From: Candidatus Tumulicola sp.
GTDB taxonomy: Bacteria; Vulcanimicrobiota; Vulcanimicrobiia; Eremiobacterales; Eremiobacteraceae
Direction of reading: 5' to 3'
NCBI GenBank assembly: GCA_035601835.1
Contig: DATNNM010000016.1
Span: 1 to 64,000, forward strand
DNA: 64,000 nucleotides
Shown here: positions 13,234-56,304 of the stretch, in pieces
Layout of the letters: each line of letters begins with the position of its first letter
How positions within the stretch are numbered: the stretch's first letter is position 1
Translations under genes and position numbers: made by a program
Notes under the pieces: generated by a model
The model's input: only the letters and a program-made list of their open reading frames with translations
Database searches by the model: none
What the model was told of the DNA's origin: nothing

Positions 13234-14364
13234 CTAGTTTTTTGGTATGGGTTGCTGGACCTCTTGAGTATGCTCCGCCCGGAGCTGGCCGCACGCGGCC
13301 GCGATGTCGTCGCCCATCGTGTGCCGGATCGTCGAAGGCACGCCTCGCGCGCGCAGAATCTCCTGGAAGCGGCGCATCACTTGCGGCGAAGAGCGTCCGT
13401 ACGACGCCGCGGTGGCGTTGTACGGGATCAGGTTGACGTGGTGGAGCGGGCCGCCGAGCAGGTCCGCGAGCTGGCGCGCGTCGTCAGGGCGGTCGTTGAC
13501 CCCTGAAAGCATCACGTATTCGTAAAAGACCTTGCGCCGGGTCACCGCGACGTACTCGTTGGTGGCGGCCATCAGCTTGGCGATCGGCCACTTCTTGTTG
13601 ATGGGCATCAGTTTGGTGCGCATGTCGTCATCAGGCGCGTGCAGCGAGATCGCGAGGTTCACTTGGATGCCCTGGCGCGTGAAACGCTCGATCCCGGTGA
13701 CCACGCCCGCGGTCGAAACCGTCATGTGGCGCGCCCCCAGGTTGAACCCGTTTTTGTCGTTGAGCATGGCGATCGAGTCCATCACCGCATCGTAGTTGAG
13801 GAACGGTTCGCCCATGCCCATGAACACGAGGTTGGTCAGCGCGCGTTTTTCGGCGCGCGCATGCCGCGCCACGAACAGCGCCTGGTCGAAGATCTCGAGC
13901 GCGCTCAGGTTGCGGAAGAATCCACCTTGGCCGGTCGCGCAAAAATCGCAGCGCAACGCGCAGCCCGCTTGCGAGGAGATGCAGGCAGTCGTGCGCCCTC
14001 CGCGATGGCGCATGAGCACGGCTTCGACTTCTTTGCCGTCGGCGAGCGCGAAGAGCAGTTTGGTCGTCTGTCCGTCTTTTGACGTGGCATCGCGGATGAG
14101 CGACAGGCTGGAGAGTTTTATCGCCTTCGCAAGCCCGGTGCGTAGGGCGGCGGGCAGCACGCTGATCGCCCCGAGGTCCTCCGCCAGCTCTTTGGTCGCG
14201 GCGCGGTAGACTTGTTCGAGGCGGTAGCGCGGCAAAGCGAACGCCTCCGCGAGCGCCGCCGCGCTTGCGTGCCCCGCCTCTTTTGCGCGCCCTTCCCACC
14301 ACGTCGCCTGGGCGTCGCGCGGTCCTGCCGCCGGTTTGGTGGCAGCCTTGATCGCGGTGCTCAT
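13234..14364 (-). CDS. rlmN: Dual-specificity 23S rRNA/tRNA adenine-C2 methyltransferase
   Basis: RlmN is a radical-SAM enzyme that methylates C2 of adenosine in 23S rRNA and some tRNAs, which supports translational accuracy. The 376 residues show the radical-SAM cluster C135, C139, C142 (QAGCALRCDFCATG). The two mechanistic cysteines are present: C128 upstream (TACISS) and C358 in GDDIAAACGQLRA, which closely matches the E. coli ending. The N-terminal accessory domain (RYRLEQVYRAATKELAED) is also present. The start overlaps the UDG stop by four bases. Confidence 0.96.
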   Translation of the reverse strand: MSTAIKAATKPAAGPRDAQATWWEGRAKEAGHASAAALAEAFALPRYRLEQVYRAATKELAEDLGAISVLPAALRTGLAKAIKLSSLSLIRDATSKDGQTTKLLFALADGKEVEAVLMRHRGGRTTACISSQAGCALRCDFCATGQGGFFRNLSALEIFDQALFVARHARAEKRALTNLVFMGMGEPFLNYDAVMDSIAMLNDKNGFNLGARHMTVSTAGVVTGIERFTRQGIQVNLAISLHAPDDDMRTKLMPINKKWPIAKLMAATNEYVAVTRRKVFYEYVMLSGVNDRPDDARQLADLLGGPLHHVNLIPYNATAASYGRSSPQVMRRFQEILRARGVPSTIRHTMGDDIAAACGQLRAEHTQEVQQPIPKN

Positions 14365-15071
14365 AGATCGAACTTCAATTCCAACGCTTGCTCCTCGGAC
14401 GCCGCTTGATCTGGCAGCTCAGGCTCTTGTGGTATGCCGGACTTTAGTCCGGCTTCGGCGGTCTCGTCCTCGCCGGCGAGGCGGCGTTGCACGGCCTGCA
14501 GATCGCTCCACACCAACTTCTTCACCGCGTTGATGTTTCCGCCGGTCAGACGCAAGATATACGCGGGGTGGAAGGTCACGATGAGGTCGCTGCCAAGCGG
14601 CCCCGGGTACCAGACGCCGCGCTGACGCGTGATGGAAAAGCCGGCACCTTGAAACGACTTGGCCGCCGGCGCCCCCAACGCCAGCACCACGCGAGGCTTG
14701 AGCACCGATAGTTCGATGTCGAGATATTCCCGGCAGTTCGCCATTTCTTCTTGCATCGGCGCGCGGTTGAATACGCGCCCGTTCTCCTCGGTGGTCGCGC
14801 GGCACTTGATGGTGTTGGTGATGAAGACATCCTCGCGGCGCAGCCCGATGGCGGCGAGCATTCGTGTGAGCAGCTCGCCGGCGCGGCCGACGAACGGTTC
14901 GCCCTGGCGGTCCTCGTTCTCGCCCGGACCCTCGCCGACGATGACCAGCGGCGAATGCGGATCGCCCACGCCGCACACGACCTTCGTGCGCGTCGAGCCG
15001 ATGGCGCAGCGGCGGCATGCATCAACAGTCTGGTGAAGTCGCTCGAGCGCGGCTGCGCGATCGTCGTTCAT
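14361..15071 (-). CDS. Family 4 uracil-DNA glycosylase (iron-sulfur)
   Basis: The enzyme excises uracil from DNA. The ATG at 15071 was chosen because it overlaps the upstream stop (ATGA) and the domain begins at once; upstream in-frame sequence is antisense-like and Arg-rich. The 236 residues carry the Fe-S ligands C19, C22, C90 and C113, the active-site loop VGEGPGENEDRQGEPFVGRAG (written as consecutive short motifs GEGPGENED and GEPFVGRAG), and the distal HPAYILR motif. All are diagnostic of family 4. The Pro/Gln/Glu-rich C-terminal tail includes nine residues, AGLKSGIPQ, that are the translation of a genomic palindromic repeat (14428-14454). The tail lies beyond the catalytic core, so activity is probably unaffected. 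Confidence 0.92.
   Translation of the reverse strand: MNDDRAAALERLHQTVDACRRCAIGSTRTKVVCGVGDPHSPLVIVGEGPGENEDRQGEPFVGRAGELLTRMLAAIGLRREDVFITNTIKCRATTEENGRVFNRAPMQEEMANCREYLDIELSVLKPRVVLALGAPAAKSFQGAGFSITRQRGVWYPGPLGSDLIVTFHPAYILRLTGGNINAVKKLVWSDLQAVQRRLAGEDETAEAGLKSGIPQEPELPDQAASEEQALELKFDL
14428..14454 (-). repeat. Palindromic repeat family B, copy 1, inside the UDG coding region
   Basis: The perfect 18-base palindrome GCCGGACTTTAGTCCGGC lies at 14436-14453 and is preceded by TGTGGTAT. All 27 bases are identical to 32398-32424. On the minus strand it is translated as part of the UDG C-terminal tail. Confidence 0.9.
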
Positions 15072-15988: not shown

Positions 15989-16071
15989 CCGGGGCTAAAG
16001 CCCCGGCACTACAAACCCCGGGGCTAAAGCCCCGGCACTACAGACCCCGGGGCTAAAGCCCCGGCACTACA
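15989..16071 (+). repeat. Three tandem copies of palindromic repeat family A, 29-base period
   Basis: Copies start at 15989, 16018 and 16047. Each is the 18-base palindrome CCGGGGCTAAAGCCCCGG followed by CACTACA, with a four-base joint (AAAC, GAC plus C, TACG). The 25-base units are identical. They lie between the glycosyltransferase start and the terminator of the ATP-grasp gene, and reappear singly at 33619, 39973, 42691 and 52665. Confidence 0.95.
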
Positions 16072-31262: not shown

Positions 31263-32375
31263 ATGACGGAAATCACTTCAGCTTTGGCCCAAGGCGAGCT
31301 TGCGCTCGCCGCCATGAGCGGCGGCGTGGATAGCGCCGTCGCGACGGCGCTTGCGGTCGGCGCTGGGGAGCGGGCGGTGGGGCTGACCATGCGGCTGTGG
31401 AGCCCCGGCGAGGGCGAGCTTTCGGAAAAGGTCCGGCAGTGCTGCGGACCGACGGCGTTTGAGGATGCTCGCCGGGCGGCGGCCCTACTCGGGATCCCCC
31501 ACTACGTGGTCAACTTCGAGGCCGGCTTCGCCCGGGCGGTCGTCGATTATTTCTGCAACGAATACCTGGCCGGACGGACCCCAAACCCGTGCGTGGCCTG
31601 CAACAACTTGGTGAAGTTCGGCGCCCTGCTCGAGTTCGCGCGGGCGCTCGGCGCGCGAAGGTTCATCACCGGGCACTACGCGCGCATCGAGCAGCGTGAG
31701 GATGGACCTCACCTCTTGCGCGCTGCCGACCGGTCAAAGGATCAATCCTACATGCTCGCCGGCTTGCGCCGCGAGCAGCTCGCGGGCGTGATCGCGCCGC
31801 TCGGCGCGTATACAAAGGAAGCGACGCGCGCAGCAGCGCGGCGTTTTGACATCGACATCGCGGAAAAGCCTGATTCGATGGACTTGTGTTTCGTCGACGG
31901 AGACTACCGCGGTTTCATCGCTCGACGTTTTCCTGAAGGCCTGGCGCCCGGCCCGATCGTGACGCTCGACGGCGACGTGGTCGGCCGCCACGACGGGTTG
32001 CTGAACTACACCGTGGGGCAGCGCAAAGGTTTGTCGCTGTCCGGTGAGGGCGACGGCCCGTGGTATGTCGTGCGCACCGAGCGTTCGCGCAACGCCGTGA
32101 TCGTCGGCCGGCGCGATGACTTATGCCGCGACCTCATCGAATGCTCCGCCGCCAACCTGCTGCAGCCGGCCGCGTTTGTGCGCGGCGAGGCGGCTGGTGT
32201 GGCGATGTGCCGTTATCGGAGCAAGCCGATTCCGGCGAGCGCATCCATCGTCGGCGATGGGCGCCTGGTCGTGCGGCTGTCGGAACCGGCGAGCATCGTG
32301 TCTCCCGGCCAACTGCTCGTGCTGTACGACGTCTCGGGCGAAGAAGTGCTCGCGTCGGGCATCATCGAGCCATGA
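31263..32375 (+). CDS. mnmA: tRNA-specific 2-thiouridylase
   Basis: MnmA thiolates U34 of Lys, Glu and Gln tRNAs. The ATG at 31263 is preferred because it lies 16 residues before the ATP-pyrophosphatase loop AMSGGVDS. The frame stays open to an ATG at 31185, so a 396-residue form cannot be excluded. The 370 residues have SGGVDS at 19-24 and the catalytic pair C110 (NPCVACNN) and C209 ([10 protein letters not shown]). [19 protein letters not shown] and the C-terminal beta-barrel also fit the family. A lipoprotein gene starts within its stop. Confidence 0.94.
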
Positions 32376-33034
32376 AAGCTGTGGCAAGCCGGACTGATGT
32401 GGTATGCCGGACTTTAGTCCGGCTCTCCGCCGTGACATGCGCAACCTTGGTCGCGCTTTGCGGTTGCGCCCAAAAGGCGGTCATCCAGGACGGCTATCGC
32501 GCGGGAGTGGTGCCCGGGATCAGCCGCCAAAAAGTGGAGGTGCTCCTCGCCAAGCCGAGCAGCGCTCAAAACTTCTCCGTGCCTGGGATCAGCGCGTTGG
32601 TCCTTTCCTATCCGTTCGGCGAAGTGCTGCTGCAGCACGACCGCGTCGTCGTCGTGTCGGTGGTGACCGACCCGAATTTCGTGGGTCCCTTGGGCATCAA
32701 GGTCGGCACACCCGAAGAGGATCTGCGCAAGGCTCTTCTTTCTGCAAAAGCTCCGCACTCCTCGTACCGGATGTCGTATCAAGTGATGGCGGGCGACATC
32801 GTGACGCGCACGCGCGATGTCTACGACGATACTGACCACGTCATGTTCGAGCTGGCGGCGTCCAACCCGAACGATCCGGAAGCGCCGTTCTCAGTCGTCA
32901 GCATCAGCATGACCAACACCGGCGGCTCGGCGTTGCTTTCATCCATCACCCAGGCCAAGGTCAATGGGATCTATCCCGGCCAGAGCATCGTCAACTACGT
33001 CTCGGAGCCCTGGCCATCTCAGAAGGGACACTAA
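32372..33034 (+). CDS. Putative lipoprotein whose signal peptide contains a genomic repeat
   Basis: The ATG overlaps the mnmA stop (ATGA), which fixes the start; in-frame sequence before it is antisense to nothing and Arg-rich. The 220 residues open with an export leader and lipobox LCGC (acceptor C32). Codons 9-18 ([10 protein letters not shown]) are the translation of the family B repeat at 32398-32424. The mature part has no motif I recognise. It begins [23 protein letters not shown], which resembles the SmpA/OmlA (BamE) start where a short helix follows a beta strand (GxxxxxVxxxLGxP pattern), then reads mixed alpha/beta. A BamE-like fold is a weak possibility. Confidence 0.75.
32398..32424 (+). 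repeat. Palindromic repeat family B, copy 2, inside a signal peptide
   Basis: The same 27 bases as 14428-14454, with palindrome GCCGGACTTTAGTCCGGC at 32406-32423. It is read in frame in the leader of the lipoprotein gene, with orientation opposite to the UDG copy relative to coding direction. A half-copy (GCCGGACT) lies just upstream near 32385-32393. Confidence 0.9.
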
Positions 33035-33618: not shown

Positions 33619-33643
33619 TGTAGTGCCGGGGCTTTAGCCCCGG
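33619..33643 (-). repeat. Palindromic repeat family A, single copy
   Basis: The palindrome CCGGGGCTTTAGCCCCGG at 33626-33643, preceded by TGTAGTG, is the reverse complement of the unit at 15989. It lies in the convergent gap between the hypothetical gene and mqnC, where a strong hairpin could help end both transcripts. Confidence 0.92.
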
Positions 33644-39972: not shown

Positions 39973-39997
39973 CCGAGGCTAAAGCCCCGGCACTACA
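39973..39997 (+). repeat. Palindromic repeat family A, one mismatch
   Basis: CCGAGGCTAAAGCCCCGG followed by CACTACA, two bases after the regulator stop. One base of the left arm differs from the consensus. It separates the plus-strand pair from the convergent permease gene. Confidence 0.88.
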
Positions 39998-42690: not shown

Positions 42691-42740
42691 CCGGGGCTAA
42701 AGCCCCGGCACTACACCCGAACTTCGTTCGGGTCGCTACA
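42691..42740 (+). repeat. Family A palindrome directly followed by a second palindromic unit
   Basis: 42691-42715 is a perfect family A unit (CCGGGGCTAAAGCCCCGG then CACTACA). 42716-42740 is a different 25-base unit built the same way: CCCGAACTTCGTTCGGG, then T, then CGCTACA. Both have 7-8 base-pair arms and a CTACA end. They lie between RNase J and the next minus-strand gene. Confidence 0.85.
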
Positions 42741-52664: not shown

Positions 52665-52689
52665 CCGGGGCTAAAGCCCCGGCACTACA
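52665..52689 (+). repeat. Palindromic repeat family A between htrA and dnaK
   Basis: A perfect CCGGGGCTAAAGCCCCGG then CACTACA, four bases after the htrA stop. The hairpin could lower read-through from htrA into dnaK, or set mRNA 3' stability. Confidence 0.92.
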
Positions 52690-54631: not shown

Positions 54632-54635
54632 AGAA

Positions 54636-54667
54636 GGAAGCAGCGGGATCTGACGATTCCGCTCCAC
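54636..54667. repeat. Palindromic repeat family C, copy between dnaK and grpE
   Basis: GGAAGCAGCGGGA, a short loop, then a TTCCGCT arm and CCAC, matching 56273-56304 at most positions. It lies between the dnaK stop and the grpE start and supplies the bases just before the grpE ribosome site. Confidence 0.8.
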
Positions 54668-55270: not shown

Positions 55271-56290
55271 ATGCCGCTGCAATACAAGGACTACTACAAG
55301 ACCCTAGGCGTGCCGAAGACCGCCACGACCAAAGAGGTCAAATCGGCTTATCGCAAGCTTGCGCGGCAATGGCATCCGGACGTCAATCCCTCGCGCAAAA
55401 AAGAGTCCGAAGAGAAATTCAAGGAGATCTCTGAGGCCAACGAGGTTCTGTCCGACCCGGAGAAGCGCAAGAAGTACGACACGCTCGGGTCTGATTGGCA
55501 GCAGCGCGCGCAGAACCAGGGATCCCGCTACGAGAACTTCGGCGGCGATGGGGTCCAGTTCGATTTCCAAGACCTCGGCGAGAACGGCTTCTCCGACTTT
55601 TTCCAGACTTTTTTCAGCGACCTCGGGCGCTCGGGTCCGGGGCCAGGGCGCGCCTCGCGCTCGCGCCGCGGCATGCGCGGCAGCGATCTGGAATCCGGCA
55701 TCGAGCTGTCGCTGCGCGATGCGTACTCGGGCGGCTCGCGTTCGTTCTCGTTTCAAACACAAGCCCGCTGCCCGCGCTGCGGCGGAACCGGCTCGGACAA
55801 CGGCAAGCTATGCCATGCATGCCGCGGCACCGGCACGATCACGACGCAGAAAACGCTCGAGGTCACGATCCCTGCCGGTGTGCGCGATGGGCAGCGCATC
55901 CGCCTCGCCGGACAGGGCGGTCCGGGCATCGGCGGCGGCGCGAACGGCGATCTGTATCTCGTGGTGAAGCTCGCTCGCGATCCGCTCTTCGAGCGGCGCG
56001 GCGACGATGTGTATATCGAGCAGCCGGTGAGCATCTACACGCTCGTGCTCGGGGGCGAGATCACGGTGCCGACCTTGACCGGACATGTGGACGTCAAAAT
56101 ACCGGCTGGCTCGCAGTCCGGCCGCGTGTTGCGCTTGACCGGTAAGGGTATGCCCAAACTGGGCGCCTCGGAGAAAGGCGATCTCTACGTGAAGCTGGTC
56201 GGCCAAGTCCCGACCAACCTGAGCGAAAAGGAACACGAACTCTTCAAGCAGTTGGCGGAGCTGGCGAAGAAAGGAAGCAGCGGGACTTAA
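55271..56290 (+). CDS. dnaJ: DnaJ/CbpA-type co-chaperone with a reduced zinc centre
   Basis: The J domain (H35-P36-D37) activates DnaK. The 339 residues have a J domain to about 72, a short Gly/Phe segment and the C-terminal substrate domains. Classical DnaJ has four CxxCxG motifs forming two zinc sites. Here only two are present (C167, C170 in CPRCGGTG; C181, C184 in CHACRGTG), so one zinc site at most can form. The protein is therefore between class A and class B J-proteins. The last codons (GSSGT, stop) are part of the family C repeat. Confidence 0.93.
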   Translation: MPLQYKDYYKTLGVPKTATTKEVKSAYRKLARQWHPDVNPSRKKESEEKFKEISEANEVLSDPEKRKKYDTLGSDWQQRAQNQGSRYENFGGDGVQFDFQDLGENGFSDFFQTFFSDLGRSGPGPGRASRSRRGMRGSDLESGIELSLRDAYSGGSRSFSFQTQARCPRCGGTGSDNGKLCHACRGTGTITTQKTLEVTIPAGVRDGQRIRLAGQGGPGIGGGANGDLYLVVKLARDPLFERRGDDVYIEQPVSIYTLVLGGEITVPTLTGHVDVKIPAGSQSGRVLRLTGKGMPKLGASEKGDLYVKLVGQVPTNLSEKEHELFKQLAELAKKGSSGT

Positions 56291-56304
56291 GAATCCCGCT
56301 CCAC
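56273..56304. repeat. Palindromic repeat family C, copy across the dnaJ stop
   Basis: GGAAGCAGCGGGA, loop CTTAAGAA, then TCCCGCTCCAC. The arms AGCGGGA and TCCCGCT are perfect. It encodes the last five residues and stop of dnaJ and ends just before the hspR gene. Confidence 0.88.

Follow-up and report, generated by a model that had tools for sequence, protein, structure and literature searches.

In-frame REPs in the uracil-DNA glycosylase and other genes of a Candidatus Eremiobacterota bacterium

Two coding copies of one palindromic element

The 27-nt sequence TGTGGTATGCCGGACTTTAGTCCGGCT, which forms part of two protein-coding genes in a soil bacterium of the Candidatus Eremiobacterota, is very probably a REP of the GTAG superfamily that was spread through single-stranded DNA (ssDNA) by a RAYT transposase and was kept as coding sequence where copies fell in frame into tolerant parts of proteins. 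The host genome (G000) comprises 2.57 Mb in 18 contigs and is 97.9% complete; it was compared with 13 genomes of the same family that belong to other genera. The window, a stretch of 64,000 nt, is part of contig C16 of this genome, and its features are listed in Table 1.

Table 1. Genes and REP copies located in the window.
Feature	Position	Strand	Remarks
Uracil-DNA glycosylase (UDG)	14361..15071	-	Pfam UDG PF03167; best PDB match 1ui0
REP family B copy in UDG gene	14428..14454	+	Read on - strand as AGLKSGIPQ, residues 207-215
Three tandem REP family A copies (TGTAGTGCCGGGGCTTTAGCCCCGG)	15989..16071	-	29-nt spacing
Small lipoprotein	32372..33034	+	No Pfam family; ATG overlaps mnmA stop (ATGA)
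Truncated half-copy of family B REP (TGTGGCAAGCCGGACT)	32380..32395	+	2 mismatches; part of 43-nt repeat D12
REP family B copy, lipoprotein signal-peptide region	32398..32424	+	Read VVCRTLVR(L)
REP family A copy	33619..33643	+
REP family A copy	39973..39997	-	1 mismatch
REP family A copy	42691..42715	-
REP family A copy	52665..52689	-

Both exact copies of the 27-mer lie on the forward strand of the window, and the sequence did not occur once in 100 dinucleotide shuffles of the window. The copies are read in opposite orientations because the UDG gene lies on the reverse strand and the lipoprotein gene on the forward strand. The reading in UDG is GCC GGA CTA AAG TCC GGC ATA CCA CAA (AGLKSGIPQ), and that in the lipoprotein, with flanking bases included, is (GA)T GTG GTA TGC CGG ACT TTA GTC CGG CT(C). 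The preliminary description had reported an identical element in frame in both genes and in opposite relative orientations, and its coordinates and both translations were exact. It had also held that stops are lacking in either reading direction, which applies to two of the three frames on each strand; the third frame contains a stop in each direction (WYAGL* forward and PD* reverse), leaving four of the six frames open. With two stop-free frames per strand, a REP copy that lies in frame can become coding sequence. Inside genes, all four open frames of the 26-mer unit are used, and the unit is otherwise mostly intergenic.

The 27-mer belongs to a dispersed family, designated family B. Its 18-nt palindrome, GCCGGACTTTAGTCCGGC, has 26 exact copies genome-wide (0 for the reversed control), and the 26-nt unit with the TGTGG head has 24 exact copies in the whole genome, or about 50 when up to three mismatches are allowed. 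The unit measures 26-28 nt, the hairpin arms are perfect in most copies, and the flanks are close to random beyond ATGTGG...GGCT, which gives the family sharp boundaries. As ssDNA, the unit folds into a hairpin with a computed energy of -8.2 kcal/mol (z -5.2).

REP families and the resident RAYT

Four REP families that share a plan of a head and a perfect palindrome were revealed by a de novo hairpin search of 461 kb: family A, family B, family C (TGTAGCGTTCCGAGCGAAGCTCGGAA) and family D (TGTAGCCACGGACCTTTAGGTCCGTG). The head is GTAG in families A, C and D and GTGG in family B, the latter being a variant of GTAG. Palindromic units of 26-28 nt, within the 20-40 nt typical of REPs, a GTAG-type head and a dispersed, high-copy and mostly extragenic distribution identify these elements as REPs of the GTAG superfamily. 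Family A is represented by more than 200 strand hits in the genome and by seven copies in the window. Family B often (12 of 44) stands directly 3' of a REP of family A or C, forming composite direct tandems (L011, L015, L018, L025, L017, L019, and L024).

The genome contains one copy of a Y1 transposase gene, located outside the window at about 73.8 kb of C16. The gene product matches Pfam Y1_Tnp (PF01797) and the E. coli TnpArep structure 4er8 (phmmer E 1.3e-8), and it carries an HUH motif (HIH, in MPDHIHM) and a downstream Tyr in YTLENPIRAGLV. It thus has the properties of a RAYT/TnpA-REP: an IS200/IS605-like Y1 enzyme with HUH and Tyr, encoded in single copy and not repeated as an IS. Two family A REPs flank the gene on one side and one inverted family A copy on the other, an arrangement that is a textbook REPtron. 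RAYT genes were found in 9 of the 13 relatives, and nearly all of these are enclosed by the relative's own, distinct REPs in inverted arrays. Classic REPtrons are seen across this Candidatus Eremiobacterota family, with a REP sequence particular to each genus (L036:3050-3700, L181-L194). The 97.9% complete G000 assembly yielded no RAYT with family B REPs at its sides, so family B may be an orphan or may have been moved in trans; the resident RAYT, itself flanked by family A, presumably mobilised it.

According to the mechanism that we propose, the REP would be a non-autonomous unit moved through ssDNA by the RAYT, a domesticated HUH/Y1 transposase. Copies would land mostly between genes, and those that break a gene would be lost. 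A copy landing in frame in a signal peptide, an inter-domain linker or a C-terminal tail, either directly or by way of small accompanying indels, would be kept and become coding. The peptides so added are probably translated and may be nearly neutral in effect.

The signal peptide of the lipoprotein

In the lipoprotein gene, the truncated half-copy lies upstream of the full REP copy at 18-nt spacing and shares its reading frame (VASRTD / VVCRTL); with a start at the ATG, the lipoprotein would thus owe the stretch from residue 4 to residue 18 to REPs. For this gene alone, there is an appreciable, if lesser, chance that translation begins within the REP or beyond it (GTG at position 32400), and that the REP serves as a 5' leader or provides the start codon and did not insert into a coding sequence that was already there. 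A start at this GTG gives a signal peptide of normal length that resembles MIKQSLASLAAAAAILGLAAC of G002, and N-terminal REPs are often mis-annotated, as cautioned by Di Nocera et al. (2013; PMC3733652). Against this, the ATG of the G000 gene overlaps the mnmA stop codon, and G007, where the leader is long, likewise shows an ATG in this context (HRAMK...).

Different REPs at the same sites of UDG and Mfd

The fold common to solved UDGs comprises residues 9-200, and the REP peptide lies beyond it, in the tail, 21 residues before the C-terminus. Residues 204-236 have a pLDDT below 50, which places the peptide in a tail that is predicted to be disordered. The comparison of orthologues revealed that the peptide is lineage-specific: AGLKSGIPQ was absent from the UDGs of 11 related genomes, and no family B unit was present in any of the 13 other genomes of the family. 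The C-terminal tails of the related UDGs differ in length and sequence, and the final residues (often ELKLDL-like), adjoining rlmN, are kept. In G003 (genus g4), the UDG tail also contains an in-frame REP, but a different one: GGTCGAGCTGAAGCTCGACCGCTAC, read as GRAEARPLQ. This REP family gave 234 strand hits in G003 and 177 in G010; four genomes from other genera gave 0. A decayed version of the g4 REP is found in the UDG tail of G010, which belongs to the same genus. As the REPs in the G000 and g4 tails are different, each lineage acquired a REP of its own in the UDG tail. A hairpin in the UDG tail of G008 (GTGGCGCC...) was rejected as a REP since it is single copy in the G008 genome.

Two in-frame REPs, each from a different family, are present in the Mfd gene of G000 (C16:153060-156851; L199:9060-12851). 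The linker that follows the UvrB-interaction domain is occupied by family C in G000, by GGGGAGCGGTCGAGAT... REPs in both G003 and G010, and in G002 by GTAGTAGGGCGAGCAACGCTCGCCC, whose family adjoins a RAYT of G009; REPs thus recur at this site in three lineages. At the second site, before the TRCF domain, a family A REP is present in G000 only, and the G000 protein is 6 residues longer there than nearly all relatives. This net gain is smaller than a whole REP, indicating that the insertion was not perfectly clean. Loci used for the Mfd comparison were L286, L289, and L296.

The signal peptide of a polysaccharide deacetylase consists, in G000, of two inverted in-frame REPs and contains, in G004, a REP of G004's own family, a recurrence in two lineages. 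This gene lies 3' of an apparent proS and has, in four genera, an apparent ATT start overlapping the upstream stop (TATTAG/TATTAA), possibly a conserved rare start (L084, L249, L250, and L252).

Same-site recurrence may reflect tolerance, a hotspot or selection, of which tolerance is favoured. It is unlikely that the same-site REPs in UDG and Mfd, instead of being independent insertions, go back to a single ancestral copy that conversion later overwrote with the REP of each lineage. The common orientation of the REPs in the UDG tail (G000, G003, and G010) and in the Mfd linker (G000, G003, G010, and G002) would fit such overwriting, but a single orientation is also expected from strand-specific insertion, and most genera have no REP at all at those sites. 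We know of no case of conversion within elements of 25 nt, which we count against overwriting. It is distinctly improbable that lineage-specific REPs repeatedly enter the linkers of repair enzymes (the UDG tail, Mfd, and also PolA) in several genera through a functional or mechanistic link between RAYT/REP and repair that goes beyond tolerance, whether because the REPs are directed to places of repair synthesis or because altered repair is selected.

In-frame REPs in other genes and census of REP positions

Several genes beyond UDG and the lipoprotein carry in-frame REPs. Among well-supported genes, in-frame copies of family B are present in UDG, the lipoprotein and a membrane protein loop (AGLKSGIPH). 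The C-terminus of FabD ends with ...AGLKSGIPQ followed by the stop codon, a virginiamycin-lyase-like protein has family B in frame in the n-region of its signal peptide (CGMPDFSPA), and the C-terminus of a hydrolase contains an in-frame variant of family B. The deacetylase signal peptide of G000 also counts among these family B cases. Internal in-frame REPs were detected in Mfd (twice), PolA, PheT, thymidine phosphorylase, and a flavoprotein linker. The REP of DNA polymerase I (G000 C11:18507-21236; L315/L316) belongs to family D and follows the 5'-3' exonuclease domain. Orthologues without the REP were found for UDG, the second Mfd site and the membrane protein. The dispersal and sharp boundaries of the element, the lineage-specific peptides and the further in-frame copies support the earlier proposal that it inserts into genes and adds peptide without breaking the frame. 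The ORFs for HMG-CoA lyase and acyl-CoA dehydrogenase contain elements at their 5' ends, but these lie in upstream extensions and were excluded as in-gene copies, and a 5-mismatch match to family A in alanine racemase is likely due to chance.

A census of the four families was made in 861 kb of sampled stretches of the genome, with gene calls from a home-made dicodon model. It detected 138 REPs, 21 fully inside predicted genes and 117 not (~12-15% in-gene). About five of the 21 in-gene REPs are doubtful (N-terminal extensions, weak matches). Approximately 90% of the DNA is predicted to be coding, compared to ~15% of the REPs located in genes.

There is little likelihood that the element is mainly a DNA or RNA signal (a terminator, a gyrase or protein binding site, or an mRNA-stabilising hairpin) and that the in-gene copies are kept for that role. 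Many copies do lie just 3' of stop codons, and passages of PMC8266576 describe such roles for REPs of other bacteria. A signal role leaves unexplained the lineage-specific sequences, the linkage to RAYT, the sharp boundaries and the copies in the middle of proteins; it is, however, compatible with the element being a REP, and the two are not exclusive. Protein-level conservation, in which selection acts on the residues and the palindrome in the DNA is a by-product, has the intact frame in both genes on its side and is refuted by the UDG orthologues that lack AGLKSGIPQ and by an identical 26-mer that is mostly intergenic and is read in four frames within genes.

Comparison with known systems

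Di Nocera et al. (2013; PMC3733652) described intragenic GTAG and CGTC REPs in many species. Genes for replication and repair (UvrABCD, RecBCD, Pol I, and error-prone polymerases) and for tRNA synthetases seemed to be favoured, and recB carried different REPs at nearly one position in two Xanthomonas species. Since intragenic REPs, the repair bias and the same-site case in recB were published in 2013, the phenomenon itself was already known. The elements described here resemble the GTAG REP superfamily of that study in having a palindrome of 20-40 bp, a GTAG-type head, a mostly extragenic location with some in-frame copies, and a RAYT flanked by REPs, which here are of family A. They differ in their occurrence in Candidatus Eremiobacterota, the GTGG head of family B, the in-gene proportion of ~12-15%, and the recurrence of REPs at one site in different genera, as seen for UDG, Mfd, and the deacetylase signal peptide.

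Rickettsia palindromic elements (RPE) are the older case of in-frame palindromic repeats that add peptide to protein genes. An RPE is an in-frame element of about 100-150 bp, classically about 150 bp, whereas the unit here is 26-28 bp with near-random flanks and is accompanied by a RAYT in the genome. The REPINs and BIMEs of Pseudomonas and E. coli (PMC3116915, PMC8266576) also have a GTAG-type head, a cognate HUH transposase, and tandem or inverted arrays, but singlets and direct tandems are common here. The proportion of in-gene copies is about ten times that of P. fluorescens SBW25, where 14 of 1,067 core 16-mers overlap genes (PMC3116915). The Y1 transposase, subterminal hairpins and a presumed ssDNA strand specificity are shared with IS200/IS605, in contrast to which the transposase here is single-copy and lies outside the repeat.

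No earlier report of REPs in Eremiobacterota was found among the papers searched. The present case adds comparative evidence of same-site recurrence between genera. With a RAYT, cognate REPs and orthologues from several genera, it is an independent example of REPs turned coding in a phylum that is distant from both Pseudomonas and Xanthomonas. The recurrence of different REPs at the same sites of UDG and Mfd makes the repair-gene bias suggested in 2013 testable family-wide. For annotation, short repeated peptides such as AGLKSGIPQ or SGAKAPALQ in Eremiobacterota proteins should be treated as repeat-derived and not as motifs.

A repeat pair, AAGGAAGCAGCGGGA...CCGCTCCAC, was also observed in the window at 54634-54667 and 56271-56304; the two copies are 82% identical and possibly represent a further repeat family.
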